From positions 1-33,072 of the forward strand of contig CAJBDJ010000003.1 of assembly GCA_903951825.1 (NCBI GenBank): a stretch of DNA of 33,072 bases, read 5' to 3'. How positions within the stretch are numbered: position 1 is the stretch's first letter; each line of letters starts with the position of its first letter. Positions 8,263-15,226 of the stretch are shown here, piece after piece. The position numbers were made by a program, and so were the translations under genes. Below the pieces are notes generated by a model. The model did not search any database, was not told the DNA's origin, and saw only the letters and a program-made list of their open reading frames with translations. The stretch comes from an uncultured Pseudomonadota bacterium (GTDB lineage Bacteria > Pseudomonadota > Gammaproteobacteria > Burkholderiales > Rhodocyclaceae).

Positions 8263-8776
8263 TTTCCAGTCTCCAGGCGAGTTGGCCGTCAGCATGGCGG
8301 GTCAGCACCAGATTCTGGCCGTCGCGCAATTCAACCTGCCAGACGCAATACGTCGCACCGATCGGCAGTTCGCGCCCGCCGCGGTCGGCGAGTACGGCCA
8401 GGCTGACCGAGGCCGGACGCCCGTAATCGAACAGTTCGTTGAGGGCGGCGCGCGTCGTCCGGCCGGTATACAAAACGTCATCGACGAGGATCAGGTGACG
8501 CCCCTCGACATCAAAGGGAATCACTGTCGGCTTGACCTGTGGATGGAGACCTTTTTCAGCGAAATCGTCGCGATAGAAAGAAACGTCGATGAGGCCGATC
8601 CCTTCGCTGAGACCGAGCGACTCTTTCAGCCGTTCGGCGATCCAGGCGCCGCCGCTGTGAATGCCGATGAAGGCGGGATGGCGGTGCAGATGCGGGCGAA
8701 TCAGTTCGGCCAGTTGGCGACACTGTGCCTCGGCATCGGCGGGCGGCGATGTCGACACGTCAGGCAGAAGGGGCAT
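8255..8776 (-). CDS. pyrR: PyrR bifunctional regulator / uracil phosphoribosyltransferase
   Basis: A 173-residue type I phosphoribosyltransferase. The PRPP-binding motif is [18 protein letters not shown]. The early [14 protein letters not shown] loop and the DVSFYRDDF and [10 protein letters not shown] segments are typical of PyrR. In Gram-positives PyrR binds pyr mRNA; in proteobacteria the gene often precedes pyrB and has UPRTase activity, while its regulatory role is less settled. I see no PyrR-binding attenuator, because no leader exists: the gene overlaps ruvX by 17 nt (8760-8776) and pyrB by 8 nt. An upstream ATG at 8887 is rejected because it would overlap ruvX by 128 nt and add a non-homologous N-terminus. 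Confidence 0.93.
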
Positions 8777-9194
8777 GGTGCGGGCTTTCGAACCAGGTTT
8801 GCAGGATGAGTTGAGCCGCGACGGCATCGCGCAGCGGCTTGGCGGATTGACTGTTACGCCCGCTTTCGCGCAGACGACTGTCGGCATCGATCGAGGTCAG
8901 GCGTTCGTCGGCAAAGGCGACGGGGAGATTGAAGCGGCGTTGCAAGCGTTCGGCAAATTTGGTCGCCAGGCGGGTCATCGTGTGCGCTGTGCCGTCGGCG
9001 TGCGTTGGCAAGCCGACAACCAGTTGCACCGGCCGCCACTCGGCAATCAGCAAAGCAATCGCGGCAAAGCGCTGAGCGTTCGATTCGCCGTGTATGACCG
9101 TCAGCGGGTGAGCGCTCGCTAGCAAAGTTTCGCCAGTGGCAACGCCAATCCGCTTCTCGCCAAAATCGAAGGCGAGGACGGTGCCCTCAGGCAT
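8760..9194 (-). CDS. ruvX: RuvX/YqgF, RNase H-fold nuclease (Holliday junction resolvase-like; 16S pre-rRNA maturation)
   Basis: A 144-residue protein, typical of the YqgF family. The first acidic strand is [13 protein letters not shown], followed by QLVVGLP, the second acidic motif FADERLTS, and the last Asp in [14 protein letters not shown], which together form an RNase H-like active site. The family has been linked both to processing of the 16S rRNA 5' end and to recombination intermediates. The start overlaps the yqgE stop by 8 nt and the end overlaps pyrR by 17 nt, so it is the second gene of a tightly coupled five-gene operon. Confidence 0.94.
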
Positions 9195-9785: not shown

Positions 9786-11201
9786 ATGAATCATGAAAAA
9801 GCCCTCGTCTGGTTTCGCCGCGATTTGCGCGATACCGACCATGCCGCGCTGAGCGCGGCACTTGCCGGGGCGCAGCAGGTTTATTGCGCCTTTGTTTTCG
9901 ACACTCGCATACTCGATGCCCTGCCTTCACGATGCGATCGGCGGGTGCATTTCATCCACGCCTCGCTGCTCGAACTCGATGCCGCACTGCGCGCCCGCGG
10001 CGGCGGCCTGATTGTCCGCCACGGCTGGGCCGAGGATGAGATTCCCCGTCTGGCGCGCGAACTTGGGGTCAGCGCGGTGTTTGCCAATCGCGATTACGAA
10101 CCCGCTGCCAAGCAACGCGATACCGCCGTTGGTACGAAGTTGGGCGCGTCGGGGATTGACTTCCACTGCCTGAAGGATCAGGTGATTTTCGAGCACGACG
10201 AGGTACTGACGCAGGCCGGCAAGCCTTTTTCGGTGTTCACGCCTTATAAAAATGCCTGGCTCAAACGCTTGAGCCCGGTCGACAGTGCCGCCCATCCTTG
10301 TGCTGGCGCGATTGCCGGCGGCGAACTGGCCGGCGTGCCGAGTCTGGCGGCGATTGGTTTTTCGGCGACCGATTTGCGCGAAGTCGGCATCATCCCCGGC
10401 ATGTCCGGCGCCCGGCAATTGTGGAGCGATTTCAGCGATGGCCGCCTCAAGCGTTACGCGGCGCTGCGGGATTTTCCGGCGGTCAAGGGCGTTTCCTATC
10501 TCTCCGTCCATCTGCGCTTTGGCACGCTGTCGATCCGCGAACTGGTGCGCGCCGCGCACGCAGCCGCGGCGGAGACCTGGCTGAGCGAACTGATCTGGCG
10601 CGATTTCTATTTCATGATTCTTGACCACTTCCCGCAAGTGGGGCGCGGTCAGGCGTTCAAAGCCGAATACGACCGGATTCAGTGGGCCGACTGGCCGGCG
10701 GGTCTGGCCGCCTGGTGTGCAGGGCGTACCGGCTATCCGCTGGTTGATGCGGCGATGCGCCAGCTCAACCACTGCGGCTGGATGCACAACCGTCTGCGCA
10801 TGGTCGTTGCCTCTTTTTTATGCAAAGACCTTGGCATCGATTGGCGACTGGGCGAAAAATACTTCGCCGAGCAACTCAACGACTTCGATCTCTCGGCGAA
10901 TAACGGCGGCTGGCAGTGGGCGGCGTCAAGTGGCTGTGACGCGCAACCTTATTTCCGGATATTCAACCCGGTCACGCAGTCGGAAAAGTTTGATGCCGAG
11001 GGTAAATTCATCCGCCGCTACGTTCCGGAACTGGCCAAGCTTCCCAACCAGTACATTCACGCCCCCTGGCGCATGGGTCGCCTCGAACAGGAAGCGACAG
11101 GTGTCGTCATCGGCCGCGATTACCCGGCACCGATCGTTGACCACGCGGTCGCCAGAGAGCACACACTGGCGCGTTACGCGGTCGTCAAACAGGCGGCTTA
11201 A
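9786..11201 (+). CDS. phr: Deoxyribodipyrimidine photolyase
   Basis: A 471-residue flavoprotein that uses light to split cyclobutane pyrimidine dimers. The N-terminal photolyase alpha/beta domain begins [16 protein letters not shown]. The C-terminal helical FAD-binding domain contains [44 protein letters not shown] and [19 protein letters not shown], the standard CPD class I signatures, including the Asn-rich FAD/DNA-contacting segment. Length matches the E. coli enzyme. A cryptochrome-like role is less likely given the intact block set but cannot be excluded by sight. The gene diverges from yqgE across a 38-bp gap and converges on the glycerate kinase gene with a 4-bp overlap. Confidence 0.95.
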
Positions 11202-12469
11202 CCGGCACCGGTGATCAGGATGGCACGAAAATCGTTGACGTTGGTCAGGGTCGGCCCGGTGACCAGCGCATCGCCGAGCGCCTCGAAAAAACTGTGGGCA
11301 TCATTGTTGTCGAGCGCCTGCTGCGGGTTGATGCCAAGCGCCCGGGCGCGTTCCAGGGTGTCCGGATAGAGCCGTGCGCCGGCAATTTCCGCCAGCCCAT
11401 CGACGCCATCGGTATCGCCGGCCAGCGCGTAAATGCCGGGATGAGCCTTGAGTGAGGTGGCCAGCGAAAGAAGAAATTCCACATTGCGGCCGCCACGCCC
11501 GTTGCCGCGCACGGTCACGGTTGTTTCGCCGCCGGAGAGCAGGATGCAGGGCGGTGCGAACGGTTGGCGGTGGCTGGCGACCTGCAAGGCAATACCGCCG
11601 AGCGCCTTGCCGAGGTCTCGTGCCTCGCCTTCGAGCGCCGCACCAAGGATGTGAGCACTGACGCCGGCACGACGGGCGATTTCTGCGGCGTGCTCGAGCG
11701 CCATTTGCGGGGTCGCGACAATCCTGGCGTGACACCGGCTCAAACGCTGATCGCCGGGCTTGATCGATTCGCCGCGACCCGACTCAAGAGTCTCGCGTAC
11801 GGCAGGAGGGAGTTCAATGTTGAAGCGCTCGATAATCGCCAGCGCATCGCCGCAAGTCGTGCGGTCGGCAACGGTCGGCCCGGAGGCGATGTCGGCCGGA
11901 TCGTCACCCGGCACGTCGGAAATCAGCAAACTCAAAACACTGGCCGGATGGCAGGCCGCCGCCAGACGTCCACCCTTGATCGCCGACAGGTGGCGGCGCA
12001 CGCAATTGATCTCGCTGATGCTGGCACCGCAGCGCAAGAGCTGGCGGCTCACTGCCTGTTTGTCAGCCAGCGTGATTCCCGCCAATGGCAGGGGCAGCAA
12101 GGCCGATCCGCCACCGGAGAGCAGGCAGAGCACCAGATCGTCGGCACGCAAGCCGCTGACCAGGTCGATCATCCGCTGCGCTGCGCCCTGCCCGAGATGG
12201 TCGGGTAGCGGATGCGCGGCTTCGACGATTTCAATTTGCCGGCACGCCACGCCGTGACCGTAGCGAGTCACCACCAGGCCGCCGGCAATGGCCGGGTAAT
12301 GCGTTGCGACCACCCTGGCCATTTCTGCCGAGGCCTTGCCGGCACCGATGACCACCAGGCGCCCGGCCGGGGCGACCGGTAAATGCCGGGGAAGGCAAAC
12401 GGACGGTTGAGCGGCGGCAATGGCCGCCAGAAACATCCGCTGCAACAAGTCGGCGGGATCAGGCGACAT
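11198..12469 (-). CDS. Glycerate 2-kinase (GckA/TtuD, MOFRL family)
   Basis: A 423-residue protein of the DUF4147/MOFRL type of glycerate kinase, which phosphorylates D-glycerate, in this family usually to 2-phosphoglycerate. Visible motifs are VVIGAGKASAEMA (about 39-51), CLLSGGGSALLPLP (about 115-128), the C-terminal LSGGETTVTV, GRGGRNVEF and AGDTDGVDGLAEIAGA. The gene was once annotated as hydroxypyruvate reductase ttuD, so databases may disagree. The start at 12469 shares its A with the TGA of the upstream reductase (TGATG). It ends the glycerate module, and its stop overlaps the phr stop. Confidence 0.92.
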   Translation of the reverse strand: MSPDPADLLQRMFLAAIAAAQPSVCLPRHLPVAPAGRLVVIGAGKASAEMARVVATHYPAIAGGLVVTRYGHGVACRQIEIVEAAHPLPDHLGQGAAQRMIDLVSGLRADDLVLCLLSGGGSALLPLPLAGITLADKQAVSRQLLRCGASISEINCVRRHLSAIKGGRLAAACHPASVLSLLISDVPGDDPADIASGPTVADRTTCGDALAIIERFNIELPPAVRETLESGRGESIKPGDQRLSRCHARIVATPQMALEHAAEIARRAGVSAHILGAALEGEARDLGKALGGIALQVASHRQPFAPPCILLSGGETTVTVRGNGRGGRNVEFLLSLATSLKAHPGIYALAGDTDGVDGLAEIAGARLYPDTLERARALGINPQQALDNNDAHSFFEALGDALVTGPTLTNVNDFRAILITGAG

Positions 12470-13347
12470 CAGTTTGGCCGGCGGCACGCCGCAGAACGCT
12501 CAGCAGGCGCGAGCTGTCGTCGGCGGCGAAGCCGGCAGCCGTGAGCGCCGCGAGTTGCTGCCGCAGGATGCTGCCGCAGGATGCTGCCGATGGGCAGCGG
12601 AATGTTGCTGCGCGTGGCGGCTGCCATAATCATCCCGATATCCTTGTGATGCAGGCGGGCTTCGATGCCGGCGGCAAAATCGCCGCGCAGCATTTTGTCG
12701 CCGAAAAAATCGACCACGCGCGAGGCAGCGGAACCGCCCTGCAGCGCCGTTCGCACCCTGGCGAAATCGACACCGGCGGCCGTCGCCAGATGGGCGGCTT
12801 CGGCACAGGCCTCGATCGCCGCGACCATCACCAGTTGATTGCAGGCCTTGGCCACCTGTCCGGCGCCCGAATCGCCGACCCGGACAACGGTTTTCGCGAG
12901 GCAGGCAAACAGCGGTTGCAGACGGGCGGCCAATTCCGCCTTGCCGCCCCACATGATCGCCAGCGTCGCCGCCCGCGCCCCGGCGGTGCCGCCAGAGACC
13001 GGGGCATCGACAAAATCGACGGCGCACGCCGCATGACGCTCGGCGACAATCCGCGCCGAAGCTGGCGAAATGGTCGAAAAATCGACATGAATGGCGCCCG
13101 CCGAGAGCCCGCCGCGCAATTCTTCTGCCAGCGCCAGAACATCGTCGTCGCCAGTGACATTGGTACAGACGATCTCGCATTGCGCAGCGAGCGCCGCCGG
13201 ATTGGCGGCAAATTCGGCACCCAGCGCCAGCAAACCTGTCGCCGCTTGCCGCCGGCGGCTCCAGACCCGCAGCGGGTAACCGGCAGCGAGCAAATGTTCG
13301 GCCATCGGGCGACCCATGCCGCCGAGGCCGATAAAGCCGATGTTCAT
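12469..13347 (-). CDS. 2-hydroxy-3-oxopropionate (tartronate semialdehyde) reductase-like protein with a frameshifted C-terminus
   Basis: A 292-residue 3-hydroxyisobutyrate dehydrogenase-family protein. The NAD(P)-binding motif is GLGGMG (7-12), the substrate motif DAPVSGG (114-120), and the catalytic lysine K167 in GAGQVAKACNQ. Homology is normal up to Gln259. There a 13-bp tandem duplication (12561-12586) shifts the frame, and the last 33 residues become an Arg/Ala-rich tail unlike the family. With one copy removed, the other frame continues with AALTAAGFAADDSSRLL and stops at 12461-12459, giving 291 residues, the same length as the neighbouring paralogue. The protein may be impaired, or the duplication may be a sequencing or assembly error. 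It overlaps the upstream paralogue by 4 nt (ATGA). Confidence 0.85.
   Translation of the reverse strand: MNIGFIGLGGMGRPMAEHLLAAGYPLRVWSRRRQAATGLLALGAEFAANPAALAAQCEIVCTNVTGDDDVLALAEELRGGLSAGAIHVDFSTISPASARIVAERHAACAVDFVDAPVSGGTAGARAATLAIMWGGKAELAARLQPLFACLAKTVVRVGDSGAGQVAKACNQLVMVAAIEACAEAAHLATAAGVDFARVRTALQGGSAASRVVDFFGDKMLRGDFAAGIEARLHHKDIGMIMAAATRSNIPLPIGSILRQHPAAATRGAHGCRLRRRRQLAPAERSAACRRPN
12561..12586. repeat. 13-bp perfect tandem duplication causing a frameshift
   Basis: CCGCAGGATGCTG occurs twice in direct succession (12561-12573 and 12574-12586), and the preceding GCTG and following CCG extend the match. Thirteen is not a multiple of three, so the duplication changes the reading frame of the reductase gene near its 3' end. 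Confidence 0.95.
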
Positions 13348-14219
13348 TCCGCTGACGACATTTTTTCGAGCAGCTTGAGCGCGGCGATTGAGTCGTCCTC
13401 GCCCATGCCGCTGCCAACCATCGCGTTGAACAACTGGGCAGTCGCCGCCGACGCCGGCAACATCAGGCCGAGGCGATGCGCCTCTTCCATGACGATGCGC
13501 AGATCCTTCTGGTGCATCCAGGCCTTGAAGCCCGGCTTGAAGTTTCTGTCCAGCATCCGCTGGCCGTGGTTTTCAAGTATCCGCGAGGCCGCAAAGCCGC
13601 CGAGCAACGCCGTCCGCACCTTGCTCACATCGACCTCGTTGCGGGCAGCAAAATTGAAGGCTTCGGCAACCGCCATGACGCCCACCCCGGTCAAAATCTG
13701 GTTGCAGGCCTTGGCCACCTGACCGGCACCAACGCCGCCGATCAGGGTTACCGATTTGCCCAGCACTTCGAACAACGGCCGGACGCGCTCGAAGATCTCC
13801 GGCTCACCGCCGGCCATGATCGTCAGGCTGGCGTTGATGGCGCCGGTTTCGCCGCCGGAGACCGGGGCATCGATGAAGGCAATCCCGCGAGCGGCGAGTT
13901 GCCCGCCGATCTGGCGTGCGGCATTCGGGTTGATCGTGCTCATGTCAACGAGCACCAGCCCCGGCCGGGCGCCGCTGGCCAGCCCCTCGGCGCCGAGGGC
14001 AACGGCTTCGACGTCGGGAGCATCGGCGACCATCGTAAACACCACCTCGGCGTGGGCGGCGACCTCAGCCGGCGAGGCATGAAGGGCGGCGTCAACTTCA
14101 GCGAAGGCCTCCAGCGCCGCCGGGCGGCGCGCCCAGAGATGCAGGCGGTGGCCGGCTTTGGCCAGGTGCAGCGCCATCGGGCGCCCCATCAATCCCAATC
14201 CGATAAAGCCGATATTCAT
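13344..14219 (-). CDS. 2-hydroxy-3-oxopropionate reductase / 3-hydroxyisobutyrate dehydrogenase family protein
   Basis: A 291-residue intact member of the beta-hydroxyacid dehydrogenase family. The Rossmann motif is GLGLMG (7-12), the substrate loop DAPVSGG (117-123) and the catalytic lysine K170 (GAGQVAKACNQ). The C-terminal helix is normal (GSGMGEDDSIAALKLLEK). Given the neighbouring glycerate kinase and hydroxypyruvate reductase, reduction of tartronate semialdehyde to D-glycerate (GlxR/GarR-like) is the best guess; 3-hydroxyisobutyrate or another short hydroxyacid is possible. The ATG at 14219 has AAGGAG eight bases upstream and overlaps the previous stop as ATGA, and its own stop overlaps the next gene in the same way. 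Confidence 0.88.
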   Translation of the reverse strand: MNIGFIGLGLMGRPMALHLAKAGHRLHLWARRPAALEAFAEVDAALHASPAEVAAHAEVVFTMVADAPDVEAVALGAEGLASGARPGLVLVDMSTINPNAARQIGGQLAARGIAFIDAPVSGGETGAINASLTIMAGGEPEIFERVRPLFEVLGKSVTLIGGVGAGQVAKACNQILTGVGVMAVAEAFNFAARNEVDVSKVRTALLGGFAASRILENHGQRMLDRNFKPGFKAWMHQKDLRIVMEEAHRLGLMLPASAATAQLFNAMVGSGMGEDDSIAALKLLEKMSSAE

Positions 14220-15226
14220 CTCACGATCTCCTTGGTCATCAATTGTCGAGCCGCCCACACCTCGGGGTTGAGCAGGTTGGGCGGCCGCCGCCCATGCAGT
14301 GCATCAATCAGATTGTCGGCGGCGCGCTGCGCCATGGCCAGCCGGGTCGCCGCGCTGGATGAACCGATATGCGGGGTTAACACAACGTTGTCGAGGGTCA
14401 GAAAACACGCATCCAGTGCCGGTTCGTTTTCAAAAACATCCAGTGCCGCTCCGGCAATCTGCCTTTGTTGCAATGCTTCGATCAGCGCCGCATCGTCAAC
14501 AATGCCGCCGCGTGCGACATTGATCAAACTCGCCTGCGGCTTCATCAGCGCCAGTTCCTTGCTGCCGATGCAGTGGTGGGTGGCCGCCGAGTATGGCACC
14601 AGCAAGACAAGAAAATCAGCATTGCGCAAGAGGGTTTCCTTGTCGACCCAGCTTGCTTTGCAGGCCGCTTCGTCAGCCACCGCCAGTCGCTGGCGGTTGT
14701 GGTAGATCACCGGCATCGAAAACCCGGCAGCCCGCCGGGCAACGGCCTGACCGATACGCCCCATGCCAAGGATGCCGAGGGTGGCATGGTGTACGTCGTT
14801 GCCCAGCCAGGGGTCGTGAAATTGCCATCCCTGCCAGTTCCCGGCACGCAGCCAGCGGTCGGCACTGACGATACGCCGGGCGCTGGCGAAAATCAGCGCC
14901 CAGGCGGTATCCGCCGTGGTTTCATCAAGCACGCCGGGAGTATGGGTGGCGCTCACCCCGGCACGCGCCAGCGCCGCCAGATCGAAATTGTTATAGCCGA
15001 CCGCGACATTGCTGACGACCCGCAACCGGCTTGCGGCAGCGATGGTCGCCTCATCAATGCGATCCGACAGCAGGGTTATGGCGCCATCCTTGTCGGCCAG
15101 GCGGGCGGCGAGATCGGCCGGTTCCAGCGGCGCATCGCGGTCGTGGTAATCGACCTCGAAATATTGCGCAAGACGCTCGATGACCACCGGGAAAAGTGCT
15201 CGACAGACGAGGATTTTCTGCTTCAT
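14216..15226 (-). CDS. D-2-hydroxyacid dehydrogenase (glyoxylate/hydroxypyruvate reductase)
   Basis: A 336-residue NAD(P)-dependent D-isomer-specific 2-hydroxyacid dehydrogenase. The nucleotide-binding motif is GILGMGRIG (151-159). The catalytic set is Arg239 (NVARGGIVDD), Glu268 (FENEP) and His286 (LTPHIGSS). The segment SNVAVGYNNFDLAAL is typical of the glyoxylate/hydroxypyruvate reductase branch. The likely reactions are hydroxypyruvate to glycerate or glyoxylate to glycolate, which fit the glycerate kinase and semialdehyde reductases downstream. The gene starts 27 nt after the pilL stop with a purine-rich GGGAGA ahead of the ATG, and I see no terminator between them. Confidence 0.9.
   Translation of the reverse strand: MKQKILVCRALFPVVIERLAQYFEVDYHDRDAPLEPADLAARLADKDGAITLLSDRIDEATIAAASRLRVVSNVAVGYNNFDLAALARAGVSATHTPGVLDETTADTAWALIFASARRIVSADRWLRAGNWQGWQFHDPWLGNDVHHATLGILGMGRIGQAVARRAAGFSMPVIYHNRQRLAVADEAACKASWVDKETLLRNADFLVLLVPYSAATHHCIGSKELALMKPQASLINVARGGIVDDAALIEALQQRQIAGAALDVFENEPALDACFLTLDNVVLTPHIGSSSAATRLAMAQRAADNLIDALHGRRPPNLLNPEVWAARQLMTKEIVR

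Follow-up and report, generated by a model that had tools for sequence, protein, structure and literature searches.

In the available portion of PMC3711429, a class of prokaryote frameshift pseudogenes or indel-mutated genes is described as "fs-gene singletons", and the available portion of PMC13207564 reviews fungal work on microhomology-mediated tandem duplications. A frameshifted beta-hydroxyacid dehydrogenase gene, here called TSR1, lies within the 33,072-nucleotide stretch of DNA analysed (the window) and can be placed beside both. As far as PMC3711429 could be consulted, TSR1 resembles its singletons in having a single-lineage break that is confirmed by protein comparison and situated near the 3' end, with no visible recoding signal, and it fits the class of recent indel-mutated genes. 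It differs from the singletons described there in that the break is a 13-bp tandem duplication carried on 19 contigs, which makes a sequencing error less likely than for those genes. The origin of the duplication fits the microhomology-mediated kind covered for fungi in that portion of PMC13207564, sharing with it a short microhomology-bounded copy that breaks the frame and is reversible in principle; unlike the fungal cases, this one is in a bacterium, with one state seen and no reversion shown. Among enzymes, the GarR/GlxR reductases (TIGR01505, NF008592, NF011633) resemble the TSR1 product, P0001, in the NAD_binding_2 and NAD_binding_11 domains over residues 1-260. A search of the literature on the TSR1 locus itself found nothing. 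With a probability of about 0.74, a recent slippage duplication has produced a real loss-of-function or impaired allele that dominates the sampled population. The features concerned are collected in Table 1.

Table 1. Features of the TSR1 locus, in window coordinates.
Feature	Position	Strand	Remarks
Frameshifted beta-hydroxyacid dehydrogenase gene TSR1 (P0001)	12469..13347	-	292 aa as written
Neighbouring frame with conserved family C-terminus, still open	12459..12584	-	stop at 12459-12461
Perfect tandem array	12556..12589	-	34 bp, period 13, 2.6 copies, 100% matches
Two 13-bp copies given by the sequence-only reading	12561..12586	-	seen in the window sequence
Companion paralogue TSR2 (P0124)	13344..14219	-	intact, 291 aa from ATG at 14219; 47% identical to TSR1
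Glycerate 2-kinase-like gene (P0244; DUF4147 + MOFRL)	11198..12469	-	downstream of TSR1
Glyoxylate/hydroxypyruvate reductase-like gene	14216..15226	-	upstream, same gene cluster

The 13-bp tandem duplication reported by the sequence-only reading was confirmed, with CCGCAGGATGCTG at 12561-12573 repeated at 12574-12586, and the perfect array proved longer than the two copies, consisting of two full units and an 8-bp overhang. A scan of the window for perfect duplications (period 4-60, matching run no shorter than one period or 10 bases, whichever is longer) returned it as the sole array of its kind. Its matching run of 21 bases was compared with 60 first-order Markov sequences as long as the window, in which the longest run was 12 (periods 8-60), and a chance repeat was ruled out. 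The same genome, over 323 kb, yielded nine perfect arrays with a period of at least 8. All seven with a period of at least 9 have periods divisible by three, and the other two, of period 8, barely reach the scan's lower limit (10 matched bases). Stop-to-stop frames of 180-1325 aa cover all nine, so the two period-8 arrays are not obviously frame-breaking; a frame-breaking duplication of such length is thus an exception within the sampled 323 kb. A hairpin at the array was also considered and rejected, since the DNA fold z-score of -1.56, with 13 of 200 shuffles as good, is not significant. Elsewhere in the window, a 613-aa ORF (16-1857) contains a large, imperfect array at 178-1445, built of tandem units about 243-270 bp long with 27-bp subunits; it resembles RTX-type calcium-binding repeats.

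In a database of about 5.8 billion proteins, the exact shifted protein is one sequence on 19 contigs, whose sources are hidden and may represent one site or the same reads deposited repeatedly. The longest of these contigs (102,670 bp) exceeds this assembly's own (100,792 bp), so at least one other assembly has the same shifted allele. TSR2 and the kinase return the same three figures (one sequence, 19 contigs, longest 102,670 bp), although the three genes need not sit on the same contigs for these counts to agree. A near-identical in-frame allele was not found among the matches listed (best 120 of 7354). An intact allele of the same species would rank second there; instead, the next-best protein listed is only 76% identical over 89% of the query. 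The shifted allele is most likely dominant in the sampled population, with the proviso that assemblies display majority states and hide minority forms. Assembly or sequencing error, an option that the sequence-only reading had kept and that a draft genome in 75 contigs might favour, is highly improbable when 19 contigs, one or more of them longer than this assembly's, record an identical protein. A single read should also be able to hold the 34-bp array, and the seven periods divisible by three indicate that chance short duplications are uncommon here.

The effect on the protein was followed along its sequence. Residues 1-259 of P0001 are family-like, and the 33 residues from 260 to 292 lie outside the family frame, which on the same strand, read as it stands, ends ...QQLAALTAAGFAADDSSRLLSVLRRAAGQTDVA. 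Pfam matches comprise NAD_binding_2 (PF03446) at 2-158 and NAD_binding_11 (PF14833) at 161-267, the latter covering only profile positions 1-108 of 122; the TIGR01505 match halts at 262 of 291, whereas four intact relatives reach 285-288. P0001 accordingly carries both domains of the beta-hydroxyacid dehydrogenase superfamily and lacks the superfamily's C-terminal segment, whose motif is present in the neighbouring frame. This motif, D-[TS]-[SAG]-x-L-[LFW]-x-[VM]-L, was sought in the last 60 residues and occurs in 119 of 119 listed homologues (the set besides the query in the best 120 of 7354 matches) and in the neighbouring frame; P0001 does not have it. Against the 119 listed family tails, the neighbouring frame has a mean local score of 73.7 (its shuffles 19.4), and the current tail scores 17.4, like shuffled sequence (16.3). 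The motif count among listed homologues and the tail scores bear out the claim that a frame shift has replaced a conserved C-terminus. What had been proposed for the one-copy form holds in part: coordinate arithmetic gives 291 residues, matching the 291 of the paralogue, and the ending that had been quoted is 13 residues short.

The shifted tail was then sought in relatives, using 128 loci (L001-L128, of which L032-L111 are 80 of 111 found); for the distant ones, a different family member, not a TSR1 orthologue, may have given the best match. It occurs in two of the 128, both being the window itself, and is absent from the other 126 loci and from the 119 listed homologues (best 120 of 7354), so relatives sharing the shifted tail, as the sequence-only reading had considered, were not found. 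The frame break is lineage-specific, as in a frameshift pseudogene or loss-of-function allele. In the genus, a match at E<=1e-70 exists in 69 of 76 genomes (one being the window's own), and 65 of the 68 other alignments end at query residue 259-268. Of the rest, that of G012 extends to 291 with two internal TGAs, that of G009 to 289 with one, and that of G069 ends at residue 240. Among the remaining seven genomes, two (G006 and G087) have partial matches beginning no more than 5 bases from a contig start, G055 has a partial match, G079 has one 49%-identical match that may be a paralogue, and G076 and G083 have no match at E<=1e-20. Repeated gene loss in the genus is unsupported, given the 69 matches and the contig-start or possible paralogue matches in several of the others. 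In the seventh genome, G018, which belongs to another species of the genus, the orthologous gene (L168, G018:C1:1382600-1383800) is broken independently at about residue 131-133, by either a real mutation or a sequencing error.

In the sister genome G068, the corresponding site is equally long, in frame and single-copy, and it lacks the 8-bp repeat. Since the array comprises two units and 8 bp, the single-copy state in the window's lineage would hold the 8-bp direct repeat CGGCAGCA (coding strand) at 13-bp spacing. Short direct repeats at such spacing are a classic setting for slipped pairing, which suggests that slipped pairing between these repeats made the duplication. Most simply, judging from one sister's DNA, the 8-bp repeat arose first, through substitutions in the window's lineage that would have placed the two copies 13 bp apart. 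Slipped pairing between them would then probably have generated the recent 13-bp duplication, putting one member of an old, adjacent pair of beta-hydroxyacid dehydrogenase genes out of frame.

Such a pair of identical copies, with its 8-bp overhang, also lends itself to precise loss, and the available portion of PMC13207564 describes reversible microhomology-mediated tandem duplications for fungi. A reversible slippage switch, in which cells alternate between one-copy and two-copy forms with the enzyme on or off, is nevertheless very unlikely. Phase-variable loci are recognised by a many-unit tract conserved in relatives; here there are only 2.6 copies, and the G068 site, having no repeat, offers no conserved device there. 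A single form is recorded, on 19 contigs, in assemblies that show the majority form only, and nothing positive was found for the switch that the sequence-only reading had entertained. There is a very slim chance that this minimal two-copy, microhomology-bounded 13-bp duplication represents a reversible metabolic off-switch in an environmental bacterium, which would act without a polar effect on the kinase because the shifted frame ends at the kinase start codon. Of the three explanations originally offered, a loss-of-function allele is favoured, assembly error is disfavoured, and nothing positive speaks for switching.

The age of the lesion was gauged against G068. Over codons 1-258, dN/dS for TSR1 is 0.155, barely the highest among the six genes kept (kinase 0.152, CheA-like gene 0.134, photolyase 0.123, hydroxypyruvate reductase 0.110, TSR2 0.072); the ORF at 8661-9122 (147 codons, dN/dS 0.898) was left out because, lacking a Pfam hit, it is perhaps not a real gene. 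Measured to four outgroups, the window's TSR1 has a mean distance of 0.60 where three sisters have 0.53, and the window's TSR2 has 0.28 where four sisters have 0.21. An excess of about 0.07 in both genes makes the whole lineage look faster and does not single out TSR1. P0001 deviates at four of 110 columns conserved in at least 95% (residues 1-252), against a median of one for listed homologues; one of the 119, the intact sister P0005, likewise deviates at four. With dN/dS roughly within the range of the neighbours and a rate excess no larger than that of TSR2, the lesion looks young, perhaps with slight relaxation. The event accordingly looks recent relative to the sister-species split, as had been proposed. 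An older pseudogene was rejected, with dN/dS hardly above the neighbours' and a rate excess like that of TSR2, although the column departures are at the high end. As a separate observation, TSR2 lies farther from the outgroups than four sisters do, and the genome measures 2.6 Mb, compared with 3.3 Mb in G068; lineage-wide relaxation or genome reduction is possible.

As to the enzyme, the NAD(P)-binding domain of P0001 survives, as do, to judge from alignment, almost all of its conserved residues ahead of 260. The active-site residues of the beta-hydroxyacid dehydrogenase family presumably also sit ahead of the shift, which could leave some activity. An unstable or inactive product is nonetheless the likeliest outcome, the replaced segment being conserved in every listed homologue. 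AlphaFold gave the intact sister protein P0006 a mean pLDDT of 88.7 in its best model, with a dip to 62 at 201-210 and C-terminal helices at 252-266 and 276-286 (block means 67-87). The best model of P0001 has a mean of 79.1, with values below 50 at 205-209, 222-232 and 260-292 and low-confidence helices at 252-265 and 275-287; alignment depth over 260-292 is zero, no homologue covering the tail in the prediction. The lower confidence of the best P0001 model lends weak support to a loss of stability. Structure prediction as proof of misfolding was rejected, because the five-model means of the two proteins are close (about 77 for P0001 and about 79 for P0006).

That closeness would suit a protein that still works, its new 33-residue tail being tolerated and the enzyme staying functional or oligomerising differently. 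So would the retained conserved residues, a dN/dS in the range of the neighbours, and a new tail whose frame runs open for 33 codons to stop precisely where the kinase begins. This reading is unlikely, however, since the lost tail holds the motif of every listed homologue, the best model falls below 50 throughout the new one, and a young lesion would give an ordinary dN/dS equally well. Programmed ribosomal frameshifting could restore the family tail, as the other frame is intact and open, but it is barely conceivable: no slippery heptamer is visible by eye at the site, and among the relatives inspected, which are in frame, the sister G068 has no such site. A damaged, most likely unstable or inactive product is therefore preferred.

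The kinase ATG (12469-12467) overlaps the TGA of the shifted frame (12471-12469) as TGATG; in G068, the TSR1 gene stops one base ahead of the kinase ATG. Given this overlap, the kinase should escape polar loss and is probably still translated. The suggestion that the paralogue covers the loss is doubtful: of 39 further loci examined in the genus (L002-L023, L112-L128), 38 have TSR2 next to a TSR1 orthologue (exception L016), and TSR2, at 47% identity, is an old, separate companion and no recent copy, leaving redundancy uncertain. The kinase, the two dehydrogenases and the hydroxypyruvate-reductase-like gene stand together (11198-15226) in the window and in G068, and a kinase match beside the TSR1/TSR2 pair occurs in none of 38 other genus loci (flanks of about 1.5 kb searched).

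The name tartronate-semialdehyde reductase, used in the sequence-only reading, did not find support. Neither P0001 (211.4 bits) nor TSR2 (314.6) reaches the TIGR01505 cut-off of 340.75, and the intact relatives P0005, P0006, P0007 and P0018 also score below it (222.7-238.5). P0001 and these four relatives thereby differ from GarR/GlxR, the 2-hydroxy-3-oxopropionate reductases, in falling under the curated cut-offs; P0001 has in addition lost its C-terminus, and its own genome has no glyoxylate carboligase above cut-off. For that enzyme (TIGR01504, cut-off 711.2), none of five genomes scored above the cut-off, the window's own reaching 323.2 bits; one of the five is only 85% complete, and in a control one of 14 genomes exceeded the cut-off. 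The safe name is a beta-hydroxyacid dehydrogenase in a glycerate/hydroxypyruvate gene cluster.

The mutation looks real but ordinary and changes no general picture. As an example it is clean: a frame-breaking mutation seen while still young, ahead of any decay of the old frame, and with its likely cause, the 8-bp direct repeats, readable in the sequence. Annotators should take warning as well, for TSR1, though broken, has normal length and domain matches and will therefore be called an intact 292-aa reductase.
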